38,528 bases of DNA from a virus. Under the pieces are notes generated by a model. It was not told the origin of the DNA. It did no database searches and was given only the letters and a program-made list of their open reading frames with translations. Position numbers and translations under genes: made by a program. Numbering within the stretch: the first letter of the stretch is position 1; each line of letters begins with the position of its first letter. Of the stretch, positions 1,108 to 26,977 are shown one piece after another. The stretch covers positions 1-38,528 of the IMG/VR virus record IMGVR_UViG_3300039412_000446. One strand, written 5' to 3'.

Positions 1108-1136
1108 ATTATATCACATCTTTGGAGCTGTGTCAA
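1108..1136 (-). promoter_or_regulatory. Consensus sigma-70 promoter for the 504-1064 gene
   Basis: On the minus strand, TTGACA (1131-1136) and TATAAT (1108-1113) are separated by exactly 17 bases, with TGA before the -10. The start codon at 1064 lies 43 bases downstream of the -10. Both hexamers are perfect consensus. Confidence 0.9.
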
Positions 1137-2152: not shown

Positions 2153-2181
2153 ATTGTATCACACCGCAGGCCGTCTGTCAA
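2153..2181 (-). promoter_or_regulatory. Sigma-70 promoter for the DUF2786 gene
   Basis: Minus-strand TTGACA (2176-2181), a 17-base spacer ending in TGA, and TACAAT (2153-2158). One mismatch in the -10 from full consensus. Same architecture as the promoters at 26 and 1108. Confidence 0.88.
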
Positions 2182-2245: not shown

Positions 2246-3121
2246 TTACAGGGACATTATCAGGTCAAGTGCTTTGGATTTCTCGGCACGGCCCGCCCCG
2301 AACCATTGAGAGTTAAGGCGTGCTTCCTGCTGTGTCTTGAACCCGTTGGTTATCCTGGTTGACCTCTCATAGTCAACATACTCAACGAACCCGTTCCACA
2401 AGGCCCAACCCGTGCCCCTGACACTGGTTAAATTATTGCCCCGCCCGTTCTCGAACAAGTCAGTGATATCGGCACGGATTGCCTTTCCCTTGCCCGTCTC
2501 TTTGTCGTATCCCATGCCGTCAAGGAAGCTTTCAACTTGAACCTTCATGACAGGCTTTTTTACAAGGGCCCCCGCCAACTGCGCAAAGTCTGCGTACCAT
2601 TGGTTGACCACCCGTAGCCTTTCCCTTGCCTCCGTGACCTTACCGCTCAGGCTTTCAGTGTGTCTGGCACTGAAACGGTTGATAGCCTTTGACAAGGCCA
2701 TATTGAGTGTATTTTGGCATGCGACCCTGACAGGTGTAATTTGCATCATTAACGGTGACTGCCCGTTATACGAATTGACTAACAGGACATGCTTTTCGAC
2801 CATGTCTTGATTAGTTACTTGGATATGGTCAGGAAGTTTGGCAAGGGCCCATATCTTTTCACCCTGACCCAAAGCACCAACCGTGTGATAGATCGCTAAC
2901 TTGTCTTGAACCACGGCATCGAAAAACGAAAAGCAATCCTTGGGCTGTATCGGTTCATGGTATTCCCCAACGACACCAAGGGCTTTTTGAGTGTCTGACC
3001 TGACAACGGCATATGACCGCTCAACCTGTACGTCCTGACCCGTTGCATTCTTGAAGCAAACGGGTTGTTTACTGACCGTCCATTCCCCTATGCCCAGCTT
3101 CAAAGCCTCATCCGCTGTCAT
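2246..3121 (-). CDS. DUF932 (phage/plasmid-like TIGR03299-type) protein, N-terminus apparently displaced
   Basis: From the first available ATG (3121) the product has 291 residues. Segments such as GVVGEYHEPIQPKDCFSFFD, LLVNSYNGQSPLMMQITPVR and VACQNTLNMAL fit the DUF932 family of phage and plasmid proteins; the function is not firmly known. The family normally starts upstream with M-(A/S)-H-N and a W-H-x-L-G-like segment. Here the frame stays open upstream (YILHGTYGLGVEVPGA before the ATG) but has no usable start codon and no ribosome site before a TGA. The missing start, with ribosome site and promoter, appears on the opposite strand at 3198-3319 (see findings). In the present arrangement the gene may be silent or weakly expressed. 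Confidence 0.8.
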   Translation of the reverse strand: MTADEALKLGIGEWTVSKQPVCFKNATGQDVQVERSYAVVRSDTQKALGVVGEYHEPIQPKDCFSFFDAVVQDKLAIYHTVGALGQGEKIWALAKLPDHIQVTNQDMVEKHVLLVNSYNGQSPLMMQITPVRVACQNTLNMALSKAINRFSARHTESLSGKVTEARERLRVVNQWYADFAQLAGALVKKPVMKVQVESFLDGMGYDKETGKGKAIRADITDLFENGRGNNLTSVRGTGWALWNGFVEYVDYERSTRITNGFKTQQEARLNSQWFGAGRAEKSKALDLIMSL

Positions 3122-3167
3122 AGCACCAGGGACTTCAACCCCTAGGCCGTATGTCCCATGTAGGATA

Positions 3168-3318
3168 TAGGCCCATGTCCCAAGTGAAACAAAACAGTTG
3201 ACAAGCGGTCAGGGCTATGGTATACTATATCCAGAATAGAACATAAGCCAGACCGCAAGGTCGGCCATCTTGATATACGGGAGGTTAGTATGTCACATAA
3301 TATAAACCGCATGGCCTA
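3168..3318. other. Putative inverted promoter/start-codon cassette
   Basis: The left end TAGGCC (3168-3173, within TAGGCCCAT) is the exact reverse complement of GGCCTA at the right end (3313-3318, within ATGGCCTA). Between them lie a consensus promoter, a leader, a GGGAGG ribosome site and an ATG, all pointing right. Reversing the piece joins ATG-TCA-CAT-AAT-ATA-AAC-CGC-ATG-GCC in frame to TAT-ATC-CTA on the minus strand and restores a complete DUF932 N-terminus. A longer inverted repeat, ACCCCTAGGCC at 3138-3148 against GGCCTAGGGGT at 3313-3323, overlaps the right end; an exchange there would not restore the frame. No invertase gene is in the window. It may be a real switch, a fixed inversion, or an assembly error. 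Confidence 0.55.
3198..3226 (+). promoter_or_regulatory. Near-consensus sigma-70 promoter pointing right
   Basis: TTGACA (3198-3203), a 17-base spacer ending in TGG (extended -10), and TATACT (3221-3226). It belongs to the same type as the three minus-strand promoters but faces the other way. As it stands, it transcribes the nine-codon frame at 3290 and could feed the rightward operon at 3744. A small stem GACC-GCAA-GGTC (3251-3262) lies in its leader. Confidence 0.88.
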
Positions 3319-3319
3319 G
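3290..3319 (+). pseudogene. Displaced 5' end of the DUF932 gene (MSHNINRMA, then stop)
   Basis: GGGAGG (3279-3284) stands five bases before an ATG that opens a nine-codon frame MSHNINRMA ended by TAG. The sequence matches the way DUF932 phage/plasmid proteins usually begin, while the DUF932 gene on the opposite strand 170 bases away lacks its start. The frame stops exactly in the GGCCTA repeat that marks the right end of the putative inverted cassette. An independent regulatory mini-frame is possible but less likely. Confidence 0.55.
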
Positions 3320-3338
3320 GGGTAGGGTAGGGGTAGGG
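3319..3338 (+). repeat. G-quadruplex-type sequence at the cassette boundary
   Basis: Four G runs (4, 3, 4 and 3 Gs) are separated by identical TA loops, which meets the usual criteria for a very stable intramolecular G-quadruplex. The first run is continuous with the GGCCTAGGGG repeat at the right end of the putative inverted cassette. A palindrome-like GTAGGGCCTAC follows directly. Confidence 0.65.
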
Positions 3339-3392
3339 CCTACGGTCAACGTACGAGGGAGATATCAAAGACACTGTAAAACGTCAGGCGTA

Positions 3393-3418
3393 GGGGGCAC
3401 CCCCACCACCCCACCCCC
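3393..3418 (-). repeat. C-rich tract (G-rich on the minus strand) with GGGGG-CA-CCCCC hairpin
   Basis: GGGGG (3393-3397) can pair with CCCCC (3400-3404), and further C runs follow at 3409-3412 and 3414-3418. On the minus strand this gives G runs of 5, 4, 2 and 5, a weaker quadruplex candidate. The remaining non-coding sequence from 3419 to 3667 shows no gene I can support. Confidence 0.35.
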
Positions 3419-3667
3419 ATATCTCACAGGTAAAAAATTTCCCAAAACTTTTCCCTCGCACTCCCTGGGACACTTGGGACACCATTTTTGAACTCCACCT
3501 AGACCTTGAGAACGCCAGTATGGGCCCACCATTTCGTTGAAGCCACCAAAATGGCACCCTTTTCTTTTCCCAGGAAGGGTCTTTGGAATGAACCCCGGTC
3601 TTTTTGAAAGATCTTTTGCATGCGAAAGAACGAAAACCATTTCTAGTATTACGGATAGAAAGGGGGT

Positions 3668-3696
3668 TTGCTTGTCTCTTGGGTTTCTGATACTAT
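3668..3696 (+). promoter_or_regulatory. Weak candidate promoter for the rightward operon
   Basis: TTGCTT (3668-3673), a 17-base spacer, TACTAT (3691-3696), 47 bases before the GTG at 3744. Matches to consensus are modest (three and four of six), so the far stronger promoter at 3198 may be the true driver. Confidence 0.3.
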
Positions 3697-3743
3697 TACT
3701 CATGTGGAAAAGTATATATAAGCGAACCAATGGAGGCGGCGGC

Positions 3744-10728: not shown

Positions 10729-11098
10729 GGTTCTTGGAAAATTAAAAGTTTTGCAAATGGATTTGTCCCAGGGAGAAACCCTCACCATTATAATCCGTGT
10801 TAAAGAAATGCCCGCCGCAGGTTCTAATTTTTATTTTCAGGGCATGGGTTCCGTTCCGCCATATACGAGCATGAGTCCACTATATAGAATGGAACGCATT
10901 GCCAGTGCGGAAGACGAAGGAGATATTAAAGAATTTTTACCAGTAGAAAATAACATGATCATAAGATGCGAAATGTATGCTGGATTGTCCGATGTGAGGT
11001 TTTTAACTGGAATGATTGCGATAGAAAGCGAACCTTTTGCCGCTGGAATTTTATTGAAAAGAATTAAAGAGCTTACAGAGAAGAGAAATAGGCAATGA
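10688..11098 (+). CDS. Small phage protein, paralogue of the previous gene
   Basis: A 136-residue protein from GTG 10688, with AGAGGG five bases upstream; an internal ATG at 10706 is the alternative. The C-terminal half is related to the 10402 product (DVRFLTGMIAIE and the terminal RIKELTEKR helix), while the N-terminal half is different and contains an insertion with SNFYFQGMGSVPPY. It ends in an ATGA overlap with the terminase gene. Small terminase subunits often sit here, but no DNA-binding helix-turn-helix is seen, so that assignment is not made. Confidence 0.7.
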   Translation: MITEKAMESVHQSRVLGKLKVLQMDLSQGETLTIIIRVKEMPAAGSNFYFQGMGSVPPYTSMSPLYRMERIASAEDEGDIKEFLPVENNMIIRCEMYAGLSDVRFLTGMIAIESEPFAAGILLKRIKELTEKRNRQ

Positions 11099-12711
11099 AT
11101 GCCACAAAATCAAAGCCATCATTTCTAAAGACATATCTTCCCCAGAACCCACATGTTGTCAGCACTCTCACTCAAGCGTCTGAATGGATCTATGAAAATT
11201 TGGGTATCGATCTTTATGACAACCAGATTGATGTCGCTGACGCTGTTGTGGACTTCGGGAAGTCTGATGTTATTATTATTGGCTCTCGTGGCGGAGGAAA
11301 GACTATGGCGGTTGGGTGCGCCATCGTAAAGCTTTGCATAGATACTCCGAATTTTAGAATTGGTGTCTTTGCTCCAAAGTGGAATCAGGCCACCAGGGTT
11401 ATAAAGGAAATTGATCCATATCTCAAGTCGGACAAATGCAAAATAAGAGATCTTATTGACTGGAAGGCTACAGTCAAAACAAGATTGCAATTTAAAAATG
11501 GTTCTTTTATACAGTGCATTTCCGCCAATGAGCTGGCGAATATCGAAGGCGAACATTTCCACGTCATAGTTGTGGACGAAGCGCACCTCGTTCCATCTAT
11601 CAGTATGAGTCAGAAAATTTCTCCAATGCTTGGATCCTTCAGCATCGCCAAGACAATAAAAATTGGCGTAGCGATGTATGATAATCATTTTAAGAAAAGT
11701 TTTCTTTCTCCGAGCTATTATAAGGTTATTAAGCCATGGACAGAGTGTCCCATACTTTTAAATTCTGGGAGTATTTTTATAGACGGTCTTGAGTATCCCA
11801 AGAAAGCATTGGGTCTCATGCCGCTATCTCTAAAGCAAAAATTGTTTCCTCTGCACCCAGAACTTTTCATGGAGGGTGGTGGAGACATGGATGAGTCAGA
11901 TTTCTTGACGCAATATATGGTTAAGTGGACTGACGACTCCAGGAATGGACTGAGTGATGACGAACAAGTTAAACTCAAGGGCGAGCATCTTCCTGAAGCG
12001 CAGGGTTATGGAAACGAGCTTTATGTTTTTGGATTGGACTTTGCCCAGGGTAGCGTCACGGGAGACGATGAGAGATTGGACTATACTGCTTTGGCAATAT
12101 GGAAAGTTGTTGAGGGGGGAATTAAGCAGAAAGTTTACGCTCGGAGCTGGAGGGGCGATAATCCGCTTGCAATCATTTCTGAGATCATTAATATCGTGAA
12201 ACCAATTGGGGGATTGTTTCCATGCAAGGTTGGCATGGTGGATTATTCTGGCGTTGGAAATGTAGCCATTAGCGCATTTAAACAAGAGGGCATTCAGGCC
12301 ACTGGCGTCATGTTTGCTCAGACGGAAAAAAATTCTGGGAAGAATTACAAGAACGCCATGTGGGACAATTTTAAATTTGAACTGGCAAACGACAGGGTTA
12401 AATATCCCTCTGAGGTTGGCATGAGCATGAACAGGTGTATGCAGGATGCGTATATGGAATGGTGTCAGATAGAAAAAAGGGAGCGGGCGGGCATAAACAA
12501 GATCATACAGTCCCCCGAAGGCTTCCACGATGATCATGCTTGCGCCGATTTGCTGGCCGTATTTATTGCGAATAGGGCAGATGTTCTTACCATGAATAGA
12601 AGCACCGCAGCGGTTTTGAGGCCAGATAGCTTAATGAAAATGCCGTCCCTATTCCCGCAGCAAGGCTCCGCAAATATGGGCCAACTCTTTTTGGGGGTTA
12701 TAAATAGATAA
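11095..12711 (+). CDS. terL: Terminase large subunit (ATPase and nuclease)
   Basis: The 538-residue packaging motor docks on the portal, translocates DNA into the procapsid and cuts the concatemer. The Walker A motif is GSRGGGKT (63-70) and Walker B with catalytic Glu is VIVVDEAH (157-164). The RNase H-like nuclease domain has acidic residues in GLDFAQG (Asp 315), VDYSG (Asp 383) and HDDHACAD (about 478-485). Length is usual for the family. The ATG overlaps the preceding stop as ATGA, and the stop overlaps the next start as TAATG. Clear assignment; the terminase subtype, and so the packaging mode, cannot be read directly. Confidence 0.95.
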   Translation: MNATKSKPSFLKTYLPQNPHVVSTLTQASEWIYENLGIDLYDNQIDVADAVVDFGKSDVIIIGSRGGGKTMAVGCAIVKLCIDTPNFRIGVFAPKWNQATRVIKEIDPYLKSDKCKIRDLIDWKATVKTRLQFKNGSFIQCISANELANIEGEHFHVIVVDEAHLVPSISMSQKISPMLGSFSIAKTIKIGVAMYDNHFKKSFLSPSYYKVIKPWTECPILLNSGSIFIDGLEYPKKALGLMPLSLKQKLFPLHPELFMEGGGDMDESDFLTQYMVKWTDDSRNGLSDDEQVKLKGEHLPEAQGYGNELYVFGLDFAQGSVTGDDERLDYTALAIWKVVEGGIKQKVYARSWRGDNPLAIISEIINIVKPIGGLFPCKVGMVDYSGVGNVAISAFKQEGIQATGVMFAQTEKNSGKNYKNAMWDNFKFELANDRVKYPSEVGMSMNRCMQDAYMEWCQIEKRERAGINKIIQSPEGFHDDHACADLLAVFIANRADVLTMNRSTAAVLRPDSLMKMPSLFPQQGSANMGQLFLGVINR

Positions 12712-13055
12712 TGCCTATCATAGATGACGCAAATAAGCTAAAATACTTAGTGGAAGATGCCCAGGGGGTCTTGGTGGATATTTTTGATGGCATATATTCA
12801 ATTACCCAGGCCAATTCCATTATAGAAGAAAAATTGGTTGCATTGCAGGAAATTGAGGGCCAGCTCGATCTGCTGGCAACGTCAATGGGCGATGAGCACA
12901 AGTTTGATGTCGAGGAACTAAAAAAGGCGTACACGGACATAGGTTCCGCAATTGGAAAAATAAATAGCTATCTTGTTCAGATTAGGCGCTCCGAGGAGTA
13001 TCAAAGAGAATATTACGGGGAAGAAAAAGCGAAGGTTGAAAAGGGGGCTAAATGA
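12711..13055 (+). CDS. Small coiled-coil protein between terminase and portal
   Basis: A 114-residue, mainly helical, acidic protein (IIEEKLVALQEIEGQLDLL, then KINSYLVQIRRSEEYQREYY). It overlaps the terminase stop at its ATG and the portal start at its stop (ATGA), so it is embedded in the packaging cassette. No known domain. A packaging accessory or portal-associated role is suggested only by position. Confidence 0.7.
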   Translation: MPIIDDANKLKYLVEDAQGVLVDIFDGIYSITQANSIIEEKLVALQEIEGQLDLLATSMGDEHKFDVEELKKAYTDIGSAIGKINSYLVQIRRSEEYQREYYGEEKAKVEKGAK

Positions 13056-14794
13056 TTCTGCTGGATGCCAACGGTAATCCACTTCCAGAAAATTTAGGTT
13101 TGGCAAAAAACGGAATAAATGTTAACCCAACTTCTTTGGGCAAGTTCGGTATCGACATGGACGCTCTCGCCAAGAGCGCACAACAGTATTCAAACTCTGC
13201 GGGCAGTGCGGGTAATGGTGGGGCGAACGTTACTCAGACATCATCGTTCTGGTATAGTCCAGAATTAACTACAGAGTCTTGGCTGCTTCCAAAGAGCAGG
13301 CAGGAAATTCTTAAATGGTGCCGTATCTTTTTTAACCTTGAACCCTACATTCAATCCATTATCATGACGCATGCGCTGTATCCGTTTTCAAAATTCGACA
13401 TCATAACCCCAGACAAAACCATAACTCAATTCTACAGAGATGTTGCTTTCCAGCAAAAGCTTGACTTATACCAATTGCTCATCACCGCCTCGCTGTCATA
13501 TTGGAAATTTGGTGAGGCAATTTTCTTTATGACCATGGAGCAGGACGATAAAGAAGATCCAGTCAGCAAGAGGAAGTTGTGGAGATGGAAGCGTGCAGTT
13601 CTTCTTGAGCCAGAGCTAGTAGAGATCAAACAGGAATTCTTTGAGTCCGACCCCACGTTTGAAATGATACCAACGGATGACATGAAGAAGCTGGCAGTAT
13701 CAAACGATCCGCACGCTGCAGAAAGAAAAGAAAAAGTTCCGCCCATTATTCTTGACTCCATTAAGGCTGGCAAGAATATACCATTGTCTTCCGAATCTGT
13801 TAGTTATATTTTTAGGCAGACAGACCCATCGGCTAATAGGGGCACGCCCATTATTCAATGCTGCTTTAAGGCTCTCATTTATCAGGATAAAATTCGCTTG
13901 GCTCAAATGGCCATTGCTGATCGCTACCATTTCCCGATTGAGATGTGGACTCTCGGAGATCTAGCGCAAAATATTTTGCCAACACCAACTGACTTGACTA
14001 ATGCAAGAAATTTAATTAACGCAGCCTTGCAGAGCCCACCATTCTCGATAGTCGTTCCGCCCATTCTTAAATACGAAGCCCTGAGCGTAAGAGATAAACT
14101 CTTACCCGTGAAGGACGACTACGATTATCTTCAGGATCAAATTTTTGTTGGTCTCGGAGTGAATAGAACTTTGATGACTGGCGAGGGGCCATCGTTCTCA
14201 AACCTGAAGGCTATTTCACTTCAGAAGCTTATTATGATCTACAAGGCCATAAGAGATCAGTTTGAAAACTGGATGATCAATTATTTTTTCAGGCCACTCG
14301 CTGAGAAGAATGAATTTTATATTATGGAGAACGGAAGAAAGAAATTGGTTCTCCCGCAAATTTCCTGGTACAAGAGTTTGGATATCGAAGAACAGAATGA
14401 GGAGCGCAAGGATTACAAGGAGCTGCACGGTAAAGGCTACATCAGCACTGAGACCTTGTTCTCTAAATTCCCAACACTTGATTACAATGCCGAGCAAGTC
14501 AAGCTTGAAAGAGAAATTGGAACCATCTGGGATAAAGGCGACAGAAGGTTGCCACGGGATCTTAAGGATAAACAGCAGCAGCAAAAGCCTGGCGAGGAAG
14601 GCAAGCCACCAACGCCGCCCAAGCCAGGTGAGGGTGAAGAGTCAGAGGCTCCAGCGGGTGGAGGTGGGGCTCCAAAGCCACCAACACCGCCCGCAACAGC
14701 TCCTGGGACATCACCCACGACAGCGCCAACAGCTCCAGCGCCAGGCGCAACAGCACCACCAGCCACAGAAGTTCCTGCGGCGGTGGGTGTTTAG
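13052..14794 (+). CDS. Portal protein
   Basis: The 580-residue dodecameric connector forms the vertex through which DNA enters and leaves the head. Portal-type features are the SFWYSPELTTESWLLPKSR lead-in, helical crown and wing segments, and the stretch around 265-300 (SANRGTPIIQCCFKALIYQD, then KIRLAQMAIADRYHFPIEMW), typical of large myophage portals. LGVNRTLMTGEGPSFSNLKA near 370 fits the conserved clip/stem area. The last 75 residues are Pro/Ala/Gly-rich and probably disordered. It lies directly after the terminase and before the maturation protease, the standard order. The family call rests on both sequence character and context. Confidence 0.88.
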   Translation: MILLDANGNPLPENLGLAKNGINVNPTSLGKFGIDMDALAKSAQQYSNSAGSAGNGGANVTQTSSFWYSPELTTESWLLPKSRQEILKWCRIFFNLEPYIQSIIMTHALYPFSKFDIITPDKTITQFYRDVAFQQKLDLYQLLITASLSYWKFGEAIFFMTMEQDDKEDPVSKRKLWRWKRAVLLEPELVEIKQEFFESDPTFEMIPTDDMKKLAVSNDPHAAERKEKVPPIILDSIKAGKNIPLSSESVSYIFRQTDPSANRGTPIIQCCFKALIYQDKIRLAQMAIADRYHFPIEMWTLGDLAQNILPTPTDLTNARNLINAALQSPPFSIVVPPILKYEALSVRDKLLPVKDDYDYLQDQIFVGLGVNRTLMTGEGPSFSNLKAISLQKLIMIYKAIRDQFENWMINYFFRPLAEKNEFYIMENGRKKLVLPQISWYKSLDIEEQNEERKDYKELHGKGYISTETLFSKFPTLDYNAEQVKLEREIGTIWDKGDRRLPRDLKDKQQQQKPGEEGKPPTPPKPGEGEESEAPAGGGGAPKPPTPPATAPGTSPTTAPTAPAPGATAPPATEVPAAVGV

Positions 14795-14807
14795 GGGGTG
14801 ATATTAA

Positions 14808-14963
14808 GTGCCTATGTTGAAGAGGGGATCTCCAGAAAAGATACAAAGCGTCACAACGGGGACAGAAGACTTTGAAAAGAACTGGAAAAAGCTGAAAGGT
14901 AATAGCAGTCCCAATAAGAAAGGGGAAAAGGCTAGTGCCGATAGTAAAAAAGGGAACTCCTGA
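14808..14963 (+). CDS. 51-residue protein, truncated tandem paralogue of the Com-like gene
   Basis: It starts at GTG 14808 behind AGGGGGTGAT (or ATG 14814). The product begins MPMLKRGSPEKIQSV and continues EDFEKNWKKLKG, closely matching the next gene (MPIVKKGTPEKVQNV, EEFEKRWAALKT). After that homologous stretch it has only a Lys/Ser/Asn tail and lacks the zinc-finger half. It overlaps the next gene by 29 bases. Tandem duplication with loss of the 3' half of the first copy, or gain of a zinc finger by the second, explains the pair. Function unknown. Confidence 0.7.
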   Translation: MPMLKRGSPEKIQSVTTGTEDFEKNWKKLKGNSSPNKKGEKASADSKKGNS

Positions 14964-15186
14964 AAAGGTTCAGAATGTCATTGTGGCCAATGAGGAATTC
15001 GAAAAGCGCTGGGCTGCATTAAAAACGAAGCCAGTTCGGTGCGTAAAGTGTAGCAAGCTCATTGCTAAAAGTTCCCAGGGCCAAATTACCATACAGAAAA
15101 AGGGCCTGGCCGCCATCGTAGACGGCAGCGGTACGGCGGATATAGTTTGCTCCTATTGTGGCACGATAAATAAGTTTGCATTCTGA
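14935..15186 (+). CDS. Com-like zinc-finger protein
   Basis: An 83-residue protein from GTG 14935 with a purine-rich AAGGGG/AAAAGG ribosome site. The C-terminal half has CVKCSKLIAK followed by IVCSYCGTINKF, two CxxC pairs in the spacing and setting of the Com zinc-ribbon family (RC-x2-C-x-K-L-L ... C-P-x-C-x-x-x-N). In phage Mu, Com is a translational activator; in many phages the family role is untested. The N-terminal half is shared with the upstream 51-residue gene. A terminator follows at 15245. Confidence 0.78.
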   Translation: MPIVKKGTPEKVQNVIVANEEFEKRWAALKTKPVRCVKCSKLIAKSSQGQITIQKKGLAAIVDGSGTADIVCSYCGTINKFAF

Positions 15187-15244
15187 TGCAAATTTGATAT
15201 ATTCTTATAAAGACAGCTTCACCAGTCCCACACAGGGACATCAG

Positions 15245-15283
15245 AGGCGCATGGAAGTAATTTTTTCCGTGCGTCTTTTTTTT
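15245..15283 (+). terminator. Rho-independent terminator
   Basis: AGGCGCATGGAA (15245-15256) pairs with TTCCGTGCGTCT (15265-15276) around an eight-base loop, with two G-T wobbles, and continues into a run of eight Ts. It ends the packaging-module transcript after the Com-like gene. The 15187-15244 sequence before it has no gene. Confidence 0.85.
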
Positions 15284-15309
15284 GAAGAGCCTAGAAAGGA
15301 CGAGATGAC

Positions 15310-15600
15310 ATGATGACATGCATAGCTTGTGGTGCTCAAGAAAAAGAGTCGAAACATATATGGTGTTCAAAATGTTTTAAGGAAAGACACTATATAGAAA
15401 TTTTTATAGAAGCGAACCACTTGGATGCGATGGGCAAGGTGATAGACCTGGCGAGGATCTCTGGAATGTCAGATCGGTCTTTCGACCAGTTTGAAAAAAC
15501 GGTTAAGCGGTATTATTACGACTTGATGAAATTTAATATCAATGAGTTGAATGCGAAGGGATACGTTCCAAAGAGAGAGGAAAAAAGCGCAGAGCAGTGA
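15310..15600 (+). CDS. Small zinc-finger protein, unknown function
   Basis: A 96-residue protein starting at ATG 15310 (a second ATG follows at 15313), with AAAGGA upstream. The N-terminus has CIACG and, after 15 residues, CSKC, consistent with one zinc ribbon; the rest is helical (FDQFEKTVKRYYYDLMKFN). It lies between the terminator at 15245 and the protease gene, so it begins the next transcript segment. No family recognised. Confidence 0.7.
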   Translation: MMTCIACGAQEKESKHIWCSKCFKERHYIEIFIEANHLDAMGKVIDLARISGMSDRSFDQFEKTVKRYYYDLMKFNINELNAKGYVPKREEKSAEQ

Positions 15601-15623
15601 AATCTTAAAAGGGGGAAAGAAAA

Positions 15624-18476
15624 ATGATTTTAAAATTCGGTAGTGCGGCAGTAATGGAGAAGGATGTAGAAAAGTTACAGAACGTGCCAGAGAAAGTAAA
15701 AGAACTGCTCGCCAACAAAGACCCCGAATTTTTATATTTTACAGCGAGAGCTATCACTGCGGACGTGCCAAATGGAAACGGAGATTACTTTCCGTGGGAT
15801 GAAATTAAAAAGTCGTACAAGACCTTCGTTGACAAACACATCGACTATAATCACAACATGGACAATCCAGGCCAGGTTGTGGGAAAAATAATTGATGCAT
15901 GGCTGGAAGAAAACGAAAAAGAAAAATACGTGATGATCCTTGGAAAGATCGACAAGGTTGATCACTCTGAGATCGCCCGTCAGGTTGAGAAACTTATTCT
16001 CGACCACGTGTCCATGGAAGCAATGGTGGCGGTAAGCAAATGTTCTATTTGCGGACATACCATCCATAATAACGCCGACAAAAAATGCGACCACTTAGAC
16101 AAAAGCCTCTTAAAGGAATGCGAGTACGAAGGCAAGAAAGCCCAGTGCTACGCCATTAACTCAGGAATTACCTTCACTGGTCTTGGCATCGTTTTGACCC
16201 CAGCGGATCAAGACGCTGCGATCAAATCGGTTATCGCCAAGATCGCCAAATACATCACAGAAACAAAAGAGTCTGACAAGACCATGATTGATGCTGAGCT
16301 CGCAGAGCTGATCAAAAAGCTTTCCGAGGCTGGCAAGGTTGAAATTCAAGAGCAGATCAAAAATATTCTTGGGAGGGGGGATGGAGTAGCCATGGAGACA
16401 AAACAAAAGACCACGGAGGAAATTGCAAGAGAGGTTAAGAGCAAGCTGAATGTTATTGAATACGAGGCCATTCAGCAAGATATTCTGAAGAATAAAGTTG
16501 AGCCTCCCAAAGAAACAAAAGTAGAACCTACTCCACCTGCGCCGCCAGCACAGCCCGTTGCGGCTGCCGTTGCCGAGTCGCCCAAAGAAGCCGTTCCTGC
16601 GGCTCCAGTTGCGCCCGTTGCGCCCAAGGTTGAGGACGTTGTGGAAGTCCTTGGCCCCGTGGAAAAAGCAAACATCAAAGATACTTATTGGGTTTTCAGC
16701 GTGAACGGCAAGCCCGCATTTCTCGCAACCCTTGGTGGGATTTGGCAGGAAATGCTGGATGATCCCGAAGCCAAAATTACCCTGGCCCCAGGAAAAGAAA
16801 TGAAGGTGGCTGAATACGCTGTGTCGTCTTTATATAAGAGCGCCCTGGAATCCAAAATTAAAGAACAGGGTCTCTCTAAGGTGGCCACATATATCAATGC
16901 GCAGAATTGGCCATCACAGCGTGGAATTGGCAAGGGGCAGTACGATATCAACCTTACCAATATGCCTAAGACAAAAACAGAAGACGGTGTTGATCTGAAG
17001 GATAATGGATCTCACGACAAGGGCCCGAAGGGTATTAATAAAGAGAATTGGCCCTCAGCCACAACTATCAAAGAGTCGCCGAAAGTGAAAGGCGAGCAGG
17101 CAACTGGTATTGAGAAGCAAGCAGATCCAATGGTGGGTGCGCCAGCCGATCCAGGTATGCCGCCTAAACCAGCGGTCAAGCCACTCGATGCCAAGCCAGG
17201 TGACAAGCCAGCGGCAAAGCCAGAAGAGAAAAAACCTCCAATGGGCGCCGAGCCTCCAAAGAAACCAGAGGCTCCCGCTGCTGCTAAGCCTGAGAAAAAG
17301 AAAATGTCCGCCAAGGAAGCCATTGAGCATATTTATGACTGCCTTGAGGCTCTTGAGGAAGAGAATCCAAAACTCAAGAAAGACATCAATGAGATCGAAG
17401 AGCTAGTCAACATCGTGATCGACCAGTCCTTCAAGAGCAAGAAAGCTCCCAAGCCCCCGAAGGAAGAAAAGAAAGAAGAGAAGGGCGAAAAGAAACCAGA
17501 GGATGGCAAGAAACCAGAGGCCCCGAAACCTGAAGATGGAAAGAAGCCAGAGGCCCCTAAGCCCGAAGCTCCTAAACCAGAAGACAAATTCAAGTCTATG
17601 GTTACATCTCTCAGCGGACTGGGATTGGTTCTTACTGCGGAGCAGGAAACAAAGCTGCAGGAAGTTGTAGCCTCGGATGAAAATATACTCATCGTTGCCA
17701 AAAAGAAACAGAATTGGCCCAAAGTTTGGAAGGGCATGGGCGGAAGCGTGGATGCCTGCATAGGCAAAGTGAGCGAGAGTGGCGAGATTGAAGATGCTGG
17801 TGCGTACTGCAATTGGCTAGAGCATCGTGCCGCTATGACTGGCGAGCCAAAAGTTGCTGAACAGGTTCCAGCGGAACCCGCAGTGACTCCAGCTCCCGAA
17901 GCTCCAGCGGCCCCAGCAGCGCCAGCAGAAGCTCCCGTGGCGCCAGCGCCTGCAGTGGCTCCAGTCCCCGAAGTAAAAGCTTCGGTTGTGACTGAGCCCG
18001 AAGTTAAGCCCGTTGTGCCAACAGATAAAGAGGTTGAGCTCCAGAAAGCATTGGATGCCAAGAATAAAGAAGCGCAAGAATTGGCCGAGAAGATCAAGGC
18101 TGATCGGACTCGTGAAGCGTTGAAGAATAAGATCGAAGATTGCAAGCGTGTCATTCTTGCGATGCGTGATAGAAACCTTATTCGGATGGACGAAAAAGAT
18201 ATAGAAGCTGCACAGAAAGACGGTCTCGCAATTTTGGAGGCCCAGAACAAAGCGTATAAACAGGCGATTGACAGACAGTTGGCAAATCTCATGAAGATGG
18301 ACATGCCCGCACTGAGAGCCTTTGCGGAGTCCATTGTCATGATACCGAAAAGAGCAGACCAGGCGAAGAATGCCAATACCCTGTCTACTGTCATCAGTCC
18401 CATGTATACCGTAAACGGAGCGAAGGATGACGATGCAACGTTCCTACAGGCTGTATTCAGTCTGGGACGTAAATAA
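15624..18476 (+). CDS. Prohead maturation protease with long Ala/Pro/Lys-rich extension (protease-scaffold fusion)
   Basis: A 950-residue protein behind AAAAGGGGGAAAG. Residues 1-210 look like a head maturation serine protease: PNGNGDYFPWDEI, HIDYNHNMDNPGQVVGKI (His 72 and His 77), and DHVSMEAMV (Ser 130), consistent with the His/Ser arrangement of the HK97-type assemblin fold. A CSICGHTIHNN zinc-like insert follows Ser 130. From about 300 the chain is dominated by Pro/Ala/Lys/Glu repeats (KPEAPKPEDG type) and coiled coil, expected for a scaffold that is degraded on maturation. Around 705-735 ACIGKVSESG and AYCNWLEHRA form a conserved-looking Cys motif found in other phage head proteins. The next genes are decoration and capsid proteins, the usual order. 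Confidence 0.82.
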   Translation: MILKFGSAAVMEKDVEKLQNVPEKVKELLANKDPEFLYFTARAITADVPNGNGDYFPWDEIKKSYKTFVDKHIDYNHNMDNPGQVVGKIIDAWLEENEKEKYVMILGKIDKVDHSEIARQVEKLILDHVSMEAMVAVSKCSICGHTIHNNADKKCDHLDKSLLKECEYEGKKAQCYAINSGITFTGLGIVLTPADQDAAIKSVIAKIAKYITETKESDKTMIDAELAELIKKLSEAGKVEIQEQIKNILGRGDGVAMETKQKTTEEIAREVKSKLNVIEYEAIQQDILKNKVEPPKETKVEPTPPAPPAQPVAAAVAESPKEAVPAAPVAPVAPKVEDVVEVLGPVEKANIKDTYWVFSVNGKPAFLATLGGIWQEMLDDPEAKITLAPGKEMKVAEYAVSSLYKSALESKIKEQGLSKVATYINAQNWPSQRGIGKGQYDINLTNMPKTKTEDGVDLKDNGSHDKGPKGINKENWPSATTIKESPKVKGEQATGIEKQADPMVGAPADPGMPPKPAVKPLDAKPGDKPAAKPEEKKPPMGAEPPKKPEAPAAAKPEKKKMSAKEAIEHIYDCLEALEEENPKLKKDINEIEELVNIVIDQSFKSKKAPKPPKEEKKEEKGEKKPEDGKKPEAPKPEDGKKPEAPKPEAPKPEDKFKSMVTSLSGLGLVLTAEQETKLQEVVASDENILIVAKKKQNWPKVWKGMGGSVDACIGKVSESGEIEDAGAYCNWLEHRAAMTGEPKVAEQVPAEPAVTPAPEAPAAPAAPAEAPVAPAPAVAPVPEVKASVVTEPEVKPVVPTDKEVELQKALDAKNKEAQELAEKIKADRTREALKNKIEDCKRVILAMRDRNLIRMDEKDIEAAQKDGLAILEAQNKAYKQAIDRQLANLMKMDMPALRAFAESIVMIPKRADQAKNANTLSTVISPMYTVNGAKDDDATFLQAVFSLGRK

Positions 18477-18496
18477 AACAAAGGGGGATTTAATCA

Positions 18497-19027
18497 ATGG
18501 CTATTCAAATTGTTAAAGAAGGTCAGCGGATGCCTGGTTGGAATATTCTTTCTACACCATCCAGCTCCCCATTTTTACCGCCAATCATCGTGGCTGGTGC
18601 TGTGATGGAGATCGACCCAAATGATTCTTCGTACAGCTCTGCCAGACTGTTAAGCGGAACCTCTCCACTTGGGATCGCCATCGATTCCAATATCCGCTCG
18701 ACAATTACCAACGGTCAGCCTGGTGTTGAGTATGTTACAGAATACAACCGTGGCGGACTGATCTCGACATCTCATGGCAACGGGATGGTTCTCCGTTCCT
18801 ATGATGATGGTCTTGGCAATGCTTGCGTCCTGTCTCCAGCTAATGCTGCTGTCTGGGCCGTCAATGCGCCAATCTACACCATCAAACAGGGCACGACTGG
18901 CAACCTGACAAGCATTGGTATGTTAACACCCGATCCAAACGGCAGCACAAACGTTTTGATTGGCAGAGTCATTAATGTCCAGGGATCGGGTTCCACTCTG
19001 TCCGTGACCTGGATCAGCTCCATATAA
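18497..19027 (+). CDS. Probable head decoration/stabilisation protein
   Basis: A 176-residue, beta-rich, neutral protein (GAVMEIDPNDSSYSSARLL, VWAVNAPIYTIKQG) behind AAAGGGGG. It sits between the maturation protease and the major capsid protein, where capsid cement proteins are normally found, and its repeated Gly/Ser/Thr-rich strands suit a small beta-barrel. No signal peptide. Sequence alone does not identify it; the call is from position and composition. Confidence 0.65.
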   Translation: MAIQIVKEGQRMPGWNILSTPSSSPFLPPIIVAGAVMEIDPNDSSYSSARLLSGTSPLGIAIDSNIRSTITNGQPGVEYVTEYNRGGLISTSHGNGMVLRSYDDGLGNACVLSPANAAVWAVNAPIYTIKQGTTGNLTSIGMLTPDPNGSTNVLIGRVINVQGSGSTLSVTWISSI

Positions 19028-19041
19028 GAAATAATCAGTAA

Positions 19042-19070
19042 AGGTGTCATGTAGGGAAACCTACGCACCT
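19042..19070 (+). promoter_or_regulatory. Stable RNA hairpin in the capsid-gene leader
   Basis: GTAGG-GAAA-CCTAC (19051-19064) closes with a GNRA tetraloop and is extended, after a bulge, by AGGTG (19042-19046) pairing with CACCT (19066-19070). There is no T run, so it is not a classic terminator. It lies just before the AAAGGGGG ribosome site of the capsid gene and may protect or process the capsid mRNA. Confidence 0.55.
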
Positions 19071-19095
19071 ACAAAACAAAAGGGGGATTAGACAC

Positions 19096-20166
19096 ATGGA
19101 AACAACAGGAGCGGTTCTACCGCCAATCACTATCGAGGCGAGCGAAAGGATCTTCACAGAGTTCAACGACATTACTAAAGAAGGCGGCCAGGTTTTGGAA
19201 GGGCTGTCGGCTCGTGAGATCGATGCTCGTTTAGATACTCTTCACAGCTCGCCAACTGGCGTGAGCAAAATCGCACAGCAAATGCTGTCTCCTTTAAAAA
19301 GAGACTTGCTGTACGAAGGCCGTATGCGTCAGATCTTCCAGACCTATAAATTGGCTCTGGGAGAAGAAGCTCGTTTCGATGCTGACATCGCAATTCCTGC
19401 GGCTGGTCTTTCGGTCAACGGATTGCCTGTTCAGTTGGATGTCAAGTCAGATCGTGTGAATGTGGATACCTCACCGATTGCTACCAAGCCCTTCGTGCGT
19501 TGGAATGAATCCAACTTCAGGAAATATGACATCCTGAACCGTGCACAAGAGCGTGCCAAAGCTTCGATCCAGTTCCAGGAAGATGTCCGTGGCTTTTCGT
19601 TGCTACAGTTCGCTTCTACACTGGGCACTGGGAACGACCTGCCAACCCCCCTGCATTCTGGCCAGGTGTTTGACCAGGGTGTGACTGTGGGTCTCGAAGG
19701 AACAACGGCTGGAACAAACAACCCATCCGTGATTAAAGAAACAGCGGGTCGCCTGACCATGGACAAATTCACAGAGGCCATTGTGACACTGAGAGCCAAG
19801 CTCGAAAGTGCAACACGGGCGCTTATGAATCCCTTCCGTGAGAAGGACTTCATGCTCTTCAACCAGGTGGTCGCAGGAACTGGTGGCGCTGGAATCTTCG
19901 CACCGAACTATCAGGAGCAAATGCTGAAATCTGGCCGTCCTGGATCTGCGTTCGGCATCGAACTGATCAGCTCCATCGTGGTGCCCGTTGATCAAGTGTA
20001 CGTCCTGGCCCCGTCCGATTATATCGGCGTGTTAGCCATCCGTACCGACATCAGCGTGGAGACCCTGAAAGATGTCAACCAGTTTGCGGATGTGTTCGCA
20101 ATCTGGGAAGACCTTGGCTTTGTTATTCGGTTCGCCAAGGGTATTTGCAGGATCGACCTGAGCTAA
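19096..20166 (+). CDS. Major capsid protein, HK97 fold
   Basis: A 356-residue protein behind AAAGGGGG. It has no long delta-domain-like leader. Segments such as LLYEGRMRQIFQTYKLALGE, ADIAIPAAGLSVNGL, VRWNESNFRKYDILNRAQE and the C-terminal DVNQFADVFAIWEDLGFVI suit a capsid with N-arm, E-loop, P-domain helix and A-domain of the myophage type. It follows protease and decoration genes and has its own terminator immediately downstream and a leader hairpin upstream, as befits the most abundant product. The fold assignment is from context and character, not from a search. Confidence 0.85.
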   Translation: METTGAVLPPITIEASERIFTEFNDITKEGGQVLEGLSAREIDARLDTLHSSPTGVSKIAQQMLSPLKRDLLYEGRMRQIFQTYKLALGEEARFDADIAIPAAGLSVNGLPVQLDVKSDRVNVDTSPIATKPFVRWNESNFRKYDILNRAQERAKASIQFQEDVRGFSLLQFASTLGTGNDLPTPLHSGQVFDQGVTVGLEGTTAGTNNPSVIKETAGRLTMDKFTEAIVTLRAKLESATRALMNPFREKDFMLFNQVVAGTGGAGIFAPNYQEQMLKSGRPGSAFGIELISSIVVPVDQVYVLAPSDYIGVLAIRTDISVETLKDVNQFADVFAIWEDLGFVIRFAKGICRIDLS

Positions 20167-25795: not shown

Positions 25796-26977
25796 ATGAG
25801 ATATCAACACAGCGAATCAATGCGAGCAAGATTGAGCCATTTCGCTAAGGAAAGATCTAAGACTTACGATATGGCTAGTCACTTTTTAAACAGCGATGGA
25901 ACACCAAAGAATCGTCCGAAGTATAGATGGCAAGAAATTTTAGAACAACATCCGAAAGAAGAAATTATCAAAGCATTTGATACTAGGGGAATGCAGGCAA
26001 TGGCGAAGGAGTGGGGGTGCCATGTCGATGTTTGCTATACCCTAAGAGATAAGTTAGGTCTTAGTAAGAAGTGGACTCAGGAAGACATTATTAAGCAGTA
26101 TTCTAAAGAGAAATTGATGGATTTATATTTCAATCAATTTAGAACCATTAAAGAAGTAGCCGACCATATAGGATGTTATCAAGATACACTGTCTAAAGTT
26201 TTTAAGAAATTGGATATAAACTTTAAAGAATTTGTTCCTACAGAAGAGATGAAAGAAAATCTGCGTCAGAAGGCATTGACTCCAGAACGCATTGCTGTTG
26301 CTACAGAAAATCTCAAAAAAATAACTCCTGAAAAGAAGCATTTAGGCGACGAGACCAGAAAATCGAGGGGGTCTGCGAAGCGAGCGCACAAAGCTAATCG
26401 GGCGCTGGAAGCGTTTTCTCTAGATGAGATAGATAAGATGGTGGAGTATAGGGGCGTATTGGGGACAGCTAGATTTCTAGGCATATCGCAATGGGCTATT
26501 AGAAGTTTTTGCTACAAGCATAAAATTACGCTCTCTAATGGCGCCAAAAAAGCCATGACGGAAACGCCTCAATACAAGGCGCAAGCTAGATTAAAAGGTG
26601 TCCATACGGTTCAGAGATCCAAGAAAAAGAACACGTCCATAGAAATAGCCGTGCAGAATGAGTTGAAATCCAGGGGTATCAAATTTGAGACTCATAAAAA
26701 TCTAGAAAACATTACGGTTCCAGATGTTTTTATAGAACCGAATATAGTCATCTATTTAGACGGTTGTTTTTGGCACGCCTGTCCAGAGCATTGCTCTGGT
26801 AGTATTATTGGAAATAAGAGAGCCATTAAAGATAAGGTCATTAATGAAGCATTGCGTAAGAAAGGATATGTCGTACTAAGATTTTGGGAGCACGATATTA
26901 AAAAAGATGTTGGAAAATGCGTCGATACCGTGCTATCATATATAGGATTGAATAACAAAAAGGGGGATAAGAAATGA
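25796..26977 (+). CDS. Vsr-like (EDxHD-type) homing endonuclease
   Basis: A 393-residue protein behind GGGAGG. The N-terminal 270 residues contain several helix-turn-helix-like DNA-reading segments (about 65-90, 105-130 and 220-245, for example FLGISQWAIRSFCYKHKI). The C-terminal part (about 280-385) is a Vsr-type nuclease fold: IEIAVQNELKSRGIKFETH, VPDVFIEPNIVIYLDGCFWH and VVLRFWEHDIKKD, with the catalytic Asp in VPD and the conserved DGCFWHACPEHC segment. Such enzymes spread themselves by cutting alleles that lack them. The stop codon overlaps the next gene's ATG, and the frame reads through that gene's AAAGGGGG ribosome site. Confidence 0.85.
   Translation: MRYQHSESMRARLSHFAKERSKTYDMASHFLNSDGTPKNRPKYRWQEILEQHPKEEIIKAFDTRGMQAMAKEWGCHVDVCYTLRDKLGLSKKWTQEDIIKQYSKEKLMDLYFNQFRTIKEVADHIGCYQDTLSKVFKKLDINFKEFVPTEEMKENLRQKALTPERIAVATENLKKITPEKKHLGDETRKSRGSAKRAHKANRALEAFSLDEIDKMVEYRGVLGTARFLGISQWAIRSFCYKHKITLSNGAKKAMTETPQYKAQARLKGVHTVQRSKKKNTSIEIAVQNELKSRGIKFETHKNLENITVPDVFIEPNIVIYLDGCFWHACPEHCSGSIIGNKRAIKDKVINEALRKKGYVVLRFWEHDIKKDVGKCVDTVLSYIGLNNKKGDKK

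Follow-up and report, generated by a model that had tools for sequence, protein, structure and literature searches.

How does an intact reading frame come to be without a start of its own while a promoter, a ribosome site and a start codon stand close by and point the other way? The question is raised by the left end of a 38,528-nucleotide stretch of viral DNA (IMG/VR virus record IMGVR_UViG_3300039412_000446, positions 1 to 38,528), the whole of which is referred to here as the window. On the minus strand, positions 2246-3121 hold the body of a DUF932 gene (TIGR03299, phrog_1221), an intact frame of 291 aa whose first in-frame ATG, as sequenced, lies at 3121. Its product scores 161 bits against Pfam PF06067 (cut-off 23), 184-194 bits against TIGR03299 (cut-off 110.7) and 198 bits against phrog_1221, and is thus a member of the family above the curated cut-offs of both PF06067 and TIGR03299. 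The titles and abstracts of the DUF932 literature give no function for these proteins. Upstream of 3121 the frame runs on through YILHGTYGLGVEV (...TWAYILHGTYGLGVEVPGAM) with no in-frame ATG, GTG or TTG; an earlier note on this DNA had been right that the gene lacks a proper start. This stranded N-terminal coding stretch, translated as YILHGTYGLGVEVPGA (3122-3173, minus strand), has no upstream start codon or Shine-Dalgarno (SD) sequence, and ATG 3121 has neither a recognisable SD site nor an upstream promoter. A product started at ATG 3121 would be without the conserved DUF932 N-terminus.

The elements of a gene start are found on the plus strand, where the same note had placed them. An extended -10 σ70-type promoter (TTGACA-N17-TATACT, 3198-3226) is directed to the right, away from DUF932, and is followed by a gene-start part (3280-3317) made up of a GGGAGG site (3280-3285), ATG 3291 and exactly nine codons, MSHNINRMA, which run up to a TAG (3318-3320), with a copy of GGCCTA at 3313-3318. 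An inverted copy of GGCCTA, reading TAGGCC on the plus strand, is present at 3168-3173, as had been reported, although that account understated the number of copies: four occur inside 200 bp (minus strand at 3143 and 3168, plus strand at 3313 and 3337) and nine in the window. When the 151-bp segment 3168-3318, which includes both of these GGCCTA copies and 139 bp between them, is flipped in silico, MSHNINRMA is joined to YILHGTYGLGVEV in the reading frame of DUF932, which runs leftward. The resulting frame, MSHNINRMAYILHGTYGLGVEVPGAMTADEAL..., is unbroken through the whole gene, which bears out the proposal that an inversion between the two copies would restore it. Segment 3168-3318 is a backwards piece carrying the promoter, the ribosome site and the first nine codons of DUF932. 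Among all flips scanned with a left end at 3122-3190 and a right end at 3200-3699, it is the sole one that combines an SD site with an inverted repeat of at least 5 bp. A flip at an 11-bp perfect repeat (3138-3148/3313-3323) was rejected, as MSHNINRMA would then run directly into TAG.

Whether MSHNINRMA is a true DUF932 N-terminus can be judged from the relatives of the gene. Their N-termini, taken from viral contigs and known phages, are strikingly uniform: they begin with M[AS]H..., often ending in MAY...PWHGLG, as in MAHNLNK (MAHNLNKSKR...), MSHELNE, MSHNVETMAY...HGLGVQV, MSHNVETMAYANEVPWHGLGVQV and MAHNVETMAWTGDKPWHGLGVEV. A whole-protein HMM gives nearly the same score with the rebuilt or the read-through N-terminus (204.5 versus 204.4 bits) and is blind to the choice between them; a separate N-terminal profile was therefore built from 71 relatives, with the window's own gene left out. 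For a test of chance, all ATG fragments of 6-20 codons on both strands were fused to the stranded tail YILHGTYGLG... and scored. The rebuilt start at ATG 3291 ranks first of 12,963 fragments at 16.1 bits, followed by shorter pieces of the same start (13.0-13.2 bits) and by the next independent fragment (9.3 bits); the contig's own read-through frame scores 3.9 bits. The best-scoring length, nine codons, is also the length set by the GGCCTA crossover, and a six-frame scan of the window with the same profile returns this stretch again as the top match. A chance match is thus unlikely, and the homology between MSHNINRMA and the N-termini of DUF932 proteins holds; the earlier note had named its absence as a way to overturn the proposal. 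The series M[SA]H...MAY is joined to GLGV only in the flipped order. The WH motif, present in 71/71 relatives, is missing; the stranded stretch (3122-3167) reads TYGLG where relatives carry WHGLG or similar. A change in the rebuilt N-terminus may thus have come earlier than the flip or followed it. One DUF932 relative has no recognisable N-terminus in any frame close to its gene.

The direction of the promoter is also out of keeping with its surroundings. Extended -10 promoters with at most two mismatches number four in the 38.5 kb; all have at most one mismatch and all lie within the first 3.3 kb, while 30 simulated sequences contained none at one mismatch or fewer. It is the extended -10 requirement that makes the count significant, since at two mismatches without it the number is 4 versus 3.4 expected. 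Three of the four face left: one of the same class and in the normal orientation serves the neighboring leftward DUF2786/DUF7168 gene (2153-2181, minus strand), one lies just upstream of another leftward gene (1108-1136, minus strand), and one stands at the contig edge (26-54, minus strand). The remaining one, which lies in the segment, points right, and the leftward DUF932 gene is without a promoter. This cluster is confined to the left end, and the structural genes have no near-consensus extended -10 promoters. The stretch from the rightward promoter to the first rightward gene showed no terminator-like site; as it now stands, the promoter would read a nine-codon dead-end ORF, then a G-rich tract, and possibly on into the rightward operon. 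The sequence TGTCCCAAGTG (3176-3186) has an exact inverse, CACTTGGGACA, at 3471-3481; once the segment is flipped, the two are direct repeats upstream of the DUF932 promoter and are possibly regulatory sites.

The junctions themselves carry little beyond the 6-bp core. The 12-bp flanks of the two crossover sites are identical at 2/12 and 1/12 positions, which is chance level, and so show nothing that looks like arms for recombinase binding. The crossover is not at the longer repeat nearby, one arm of which lies in DUF932 codons (3138-3161, plus strand) and is partnered with 3313-3323. In the contig this repeat is perfect over 11 bp; in the flipped order it extends to 24 imperfect columns, with ACCCCTAGGCCGTATGTCCCATGT set against ACCCCTAGGCC-CATGTCCCAAGT, and spans the right junction. 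Its score in that order is 15.5 versus a maximum of 13.0 across 680 control windows, a comparison picked after the fact. Single-stranded DNA is predicted to fold end to end through the repeat in both orders (z -4.4 flipped, z -3.9 in the contig state). The sequence GGGGTAGGGTAGGGGTAGGG (3319-3338, plus strand), which abuts the right breakpoint, is a perfect G-quadruplex motif and the only one on the plus strand of the window.

Taken together, the rank of the rebuilt N-terminus, the sole flip with both an SD site and an inverted repeat, the odd direction of the promoter and the restored 24-column repeat argue that the sequenced state is almost certainly a derived inversion. The flipped-back order is very probably the ancestral one, to judge from protein homology and promoter orientation.

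Known invertible promoters come with a cognate recombinase. A search for one, which the earlier note had suggested, came back empty: the window and seven records that carry related portal genes showed neither a tyrosine recombinase (PF00589) nor a serine-type resolvase (PF00239), and PHROG and Pfam scans likewise yielded no integrase or resolvase. The negative result carries little weight, as the contig is probably incomplete and the gene could lie beyond its ends. Among known portals, the nearest belongs to Bacillus phage G, a phage of 497 kb, which suggests a larger tailed phage of which the contig is one piece. The window carries terminase, portal, protease-like and major head genes at 11095-20166. 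The portal genes of four related contigs (L006, L009, L010 and L011) match in pieces about 1-2.7 kb apart, with breaks at about residue 89 and residue 383 in the portal of the window, and in L011 the terminase is split as well; introns, inteins or homing insertions are possible causes. Amid the structural genes of the window lies a gene (25796-26977) with a Vsr/DUF559-like nuclease domain and weak HNH matches. Among about 80 other DUF932 loci examined, none has an inverted N-terminus. A protein search with DUF932 gave one relative at 40%, none near enough for comparison, and within the accessible collections nothing usable came from searches with degenerate MAYILHGTYG DNA or the exact start-segment DNA, from neighboring genes, from known phages at the DNA level, or from genome contigs matched by major head and portal proteins.

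What kind of event produced the present order? The earlier note had set an on/off or direction switch, a one-time inversion and a misassembly side by side. The one-time inversion is favored here, with a probability of roughly 0.55 that it was a real, small and unprogrammed event, and the reversible switch finds no support in a 6-bp core with unrelated flanks and no recombinase. In a programmed switch, a phage or host recombinase would flip a 140-151-bp cassette so that DUF932 is on in the leftward orientation and off in the present one. The cassette would alternate between DUF932 and the rightward operon by means of the GGCCTA core and an imperfect inverted repeat that lies partly in coding sequence; an off-contig or host recombinase, or spontaneous fold-back, would be the driver. 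Such a scheme would account for a flip that is exact and lossless, for the joint travel of promoter, SD site, ATG and nine codons, and for inverted repeats that flank the cassette in either state (11 bp now, 24 columns flipped). Short repeats also occur in known switches, such as the 9-bp repeats of fimS, an invertible promoter of E. coli (PMC9993118). However, the core here is shorter still, the presumed arms are dissimilar, the longer repeat was bypassed, and neither the recombinase searches nor the other DUF932 loci lend the scheme any help; we consider both the switch and the alternation that it entails rather improbable.

The inversion could also have arisen outside the phage, in which case the real genome would be normal and the contig would bear a falsely inverted 151-bp piece. 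The contig is an IMG/VR virus record and probably metagenomic, and 151 bp is near a common Illumina read length, possibly by coincidence. Assembly k-mer sizes far exceed 6 bp, however, so reads must have supported both junctions, and the rest of the contig consists of long intact frames. Amplification chimeras do join inverted sequences at short complementarity, but more than 85% of them are inverted joins with a deletion (PMC1855051), whereas the flip here is lossless and has both junctions. A library or assembly artefact is unlikely. A different reading takes the present order as a stable, functional one, with DUF932 made from ATG 3121, the promoter serving the rightward operon, and the likeness of MSHNINRMA due to chance or to a relic. 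The intact 291-aa frame, well above the family cut-offs, and the clear run from the promoter to the first rightward gene are in keeping with it, but the first rank among 12,963 fragments speaks against chance, ATG 3121 is poorly equipped as a start, and the relic version needs an inversion all the same. It is very unlikely, and everything other than the one-time inversion, the switch and the artefact has, taken jointly, a low probability.

Under the favored reading, a single unprogrammed inversion, the ancestral DUF932 gene would have been a normal one read leftward, equipped with an extended -10 promoter of its own, with a GGGAGG site and with MSHNINRMAYILHGTYGLGVEV as its start. Segment 3168-3318 would then have been inverted once between the two 6-bp inverted copies of GGCCTA. 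Fold-back of the imperfect inverted repeat that flanks it probably guided this step, and template switching, or microhomology or break repair, at replication (at a stalled fork) may have completed the exchange. The 6-bp core, the unrelated flanks and the negative recombinase searches fit microhomology. The predicted folds and the G-quadruplex motif at the right breakpoint agree with template switching or microhomology repair, a route put forward for lossless microinversions between inverted repeats of 3-75 nt (PMC8755829). The outcome would be a DUF932 gene stripped of its promoter, ribosome site and nine codons, and a promoter turned rightward. With these parts lost, DUF932 as sequenced is probably either not expressed or translated from ATG 3121 into a product truncated at its N-terminus. 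The elements, the junction statistics and the direction of the promoter can be read directly from the window; from them we infer that the event took place in vivo, that no enzyme programmed it and that it altered expression.

If the event was a one-off, the locus would be a clear phage case of a small inversion in which promoter and gene start moved together; a single genome suffices to read it, given how well conserved the DUF932 N-terminus is. A small inversion of this kind can conceal a gene start from automatic annotation. Should both orientations turn up in reads, the locus would instead represent a switch in a phage, one whose crossover site is unusually short.

Compared with the DUF932/TIGR03299 family of phage and plasmid proteins (PF06067, phrog_1221), the gene body and the rebuilt N-terminus are alike, whereas the gene in the window is split from its own start and reads TYGLG at the position of the WHGLG-type motif. 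In invertons, such as fimS, a segment with a promoter likewise lies between inverted repeats, and the way this segment points determines whether the gene next to it is supplied with a promoter; by its sequence the segment here has this arrangement, with an alternative orientation that would drive a gene. However, inverton repeats are typically 10-40 nt (PMC11892184), and the 6-bp core falls outside the range of 9-40 bp with similar arms; in addition, unlike invertons, the segment bears a start codon and nine codons, and a single orientation was read. Another likeness is to the microinversions described in primates, where precisely copied inserts of 17-33 nt are flanked by inverted repeats of 3-75 nt (PMC8755829). 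Those were recognized from two aligned genomes and are shorter than the 151 bp found here in a phage, where the event is deduced from one contig and protein homology. Segment 3168-3318 nevertheless has the features by which they are defined, a lossless flip with short, possibly imperfect flanking inverted repeats, and the primate events are likewise precise and need no dedicated enzyme.
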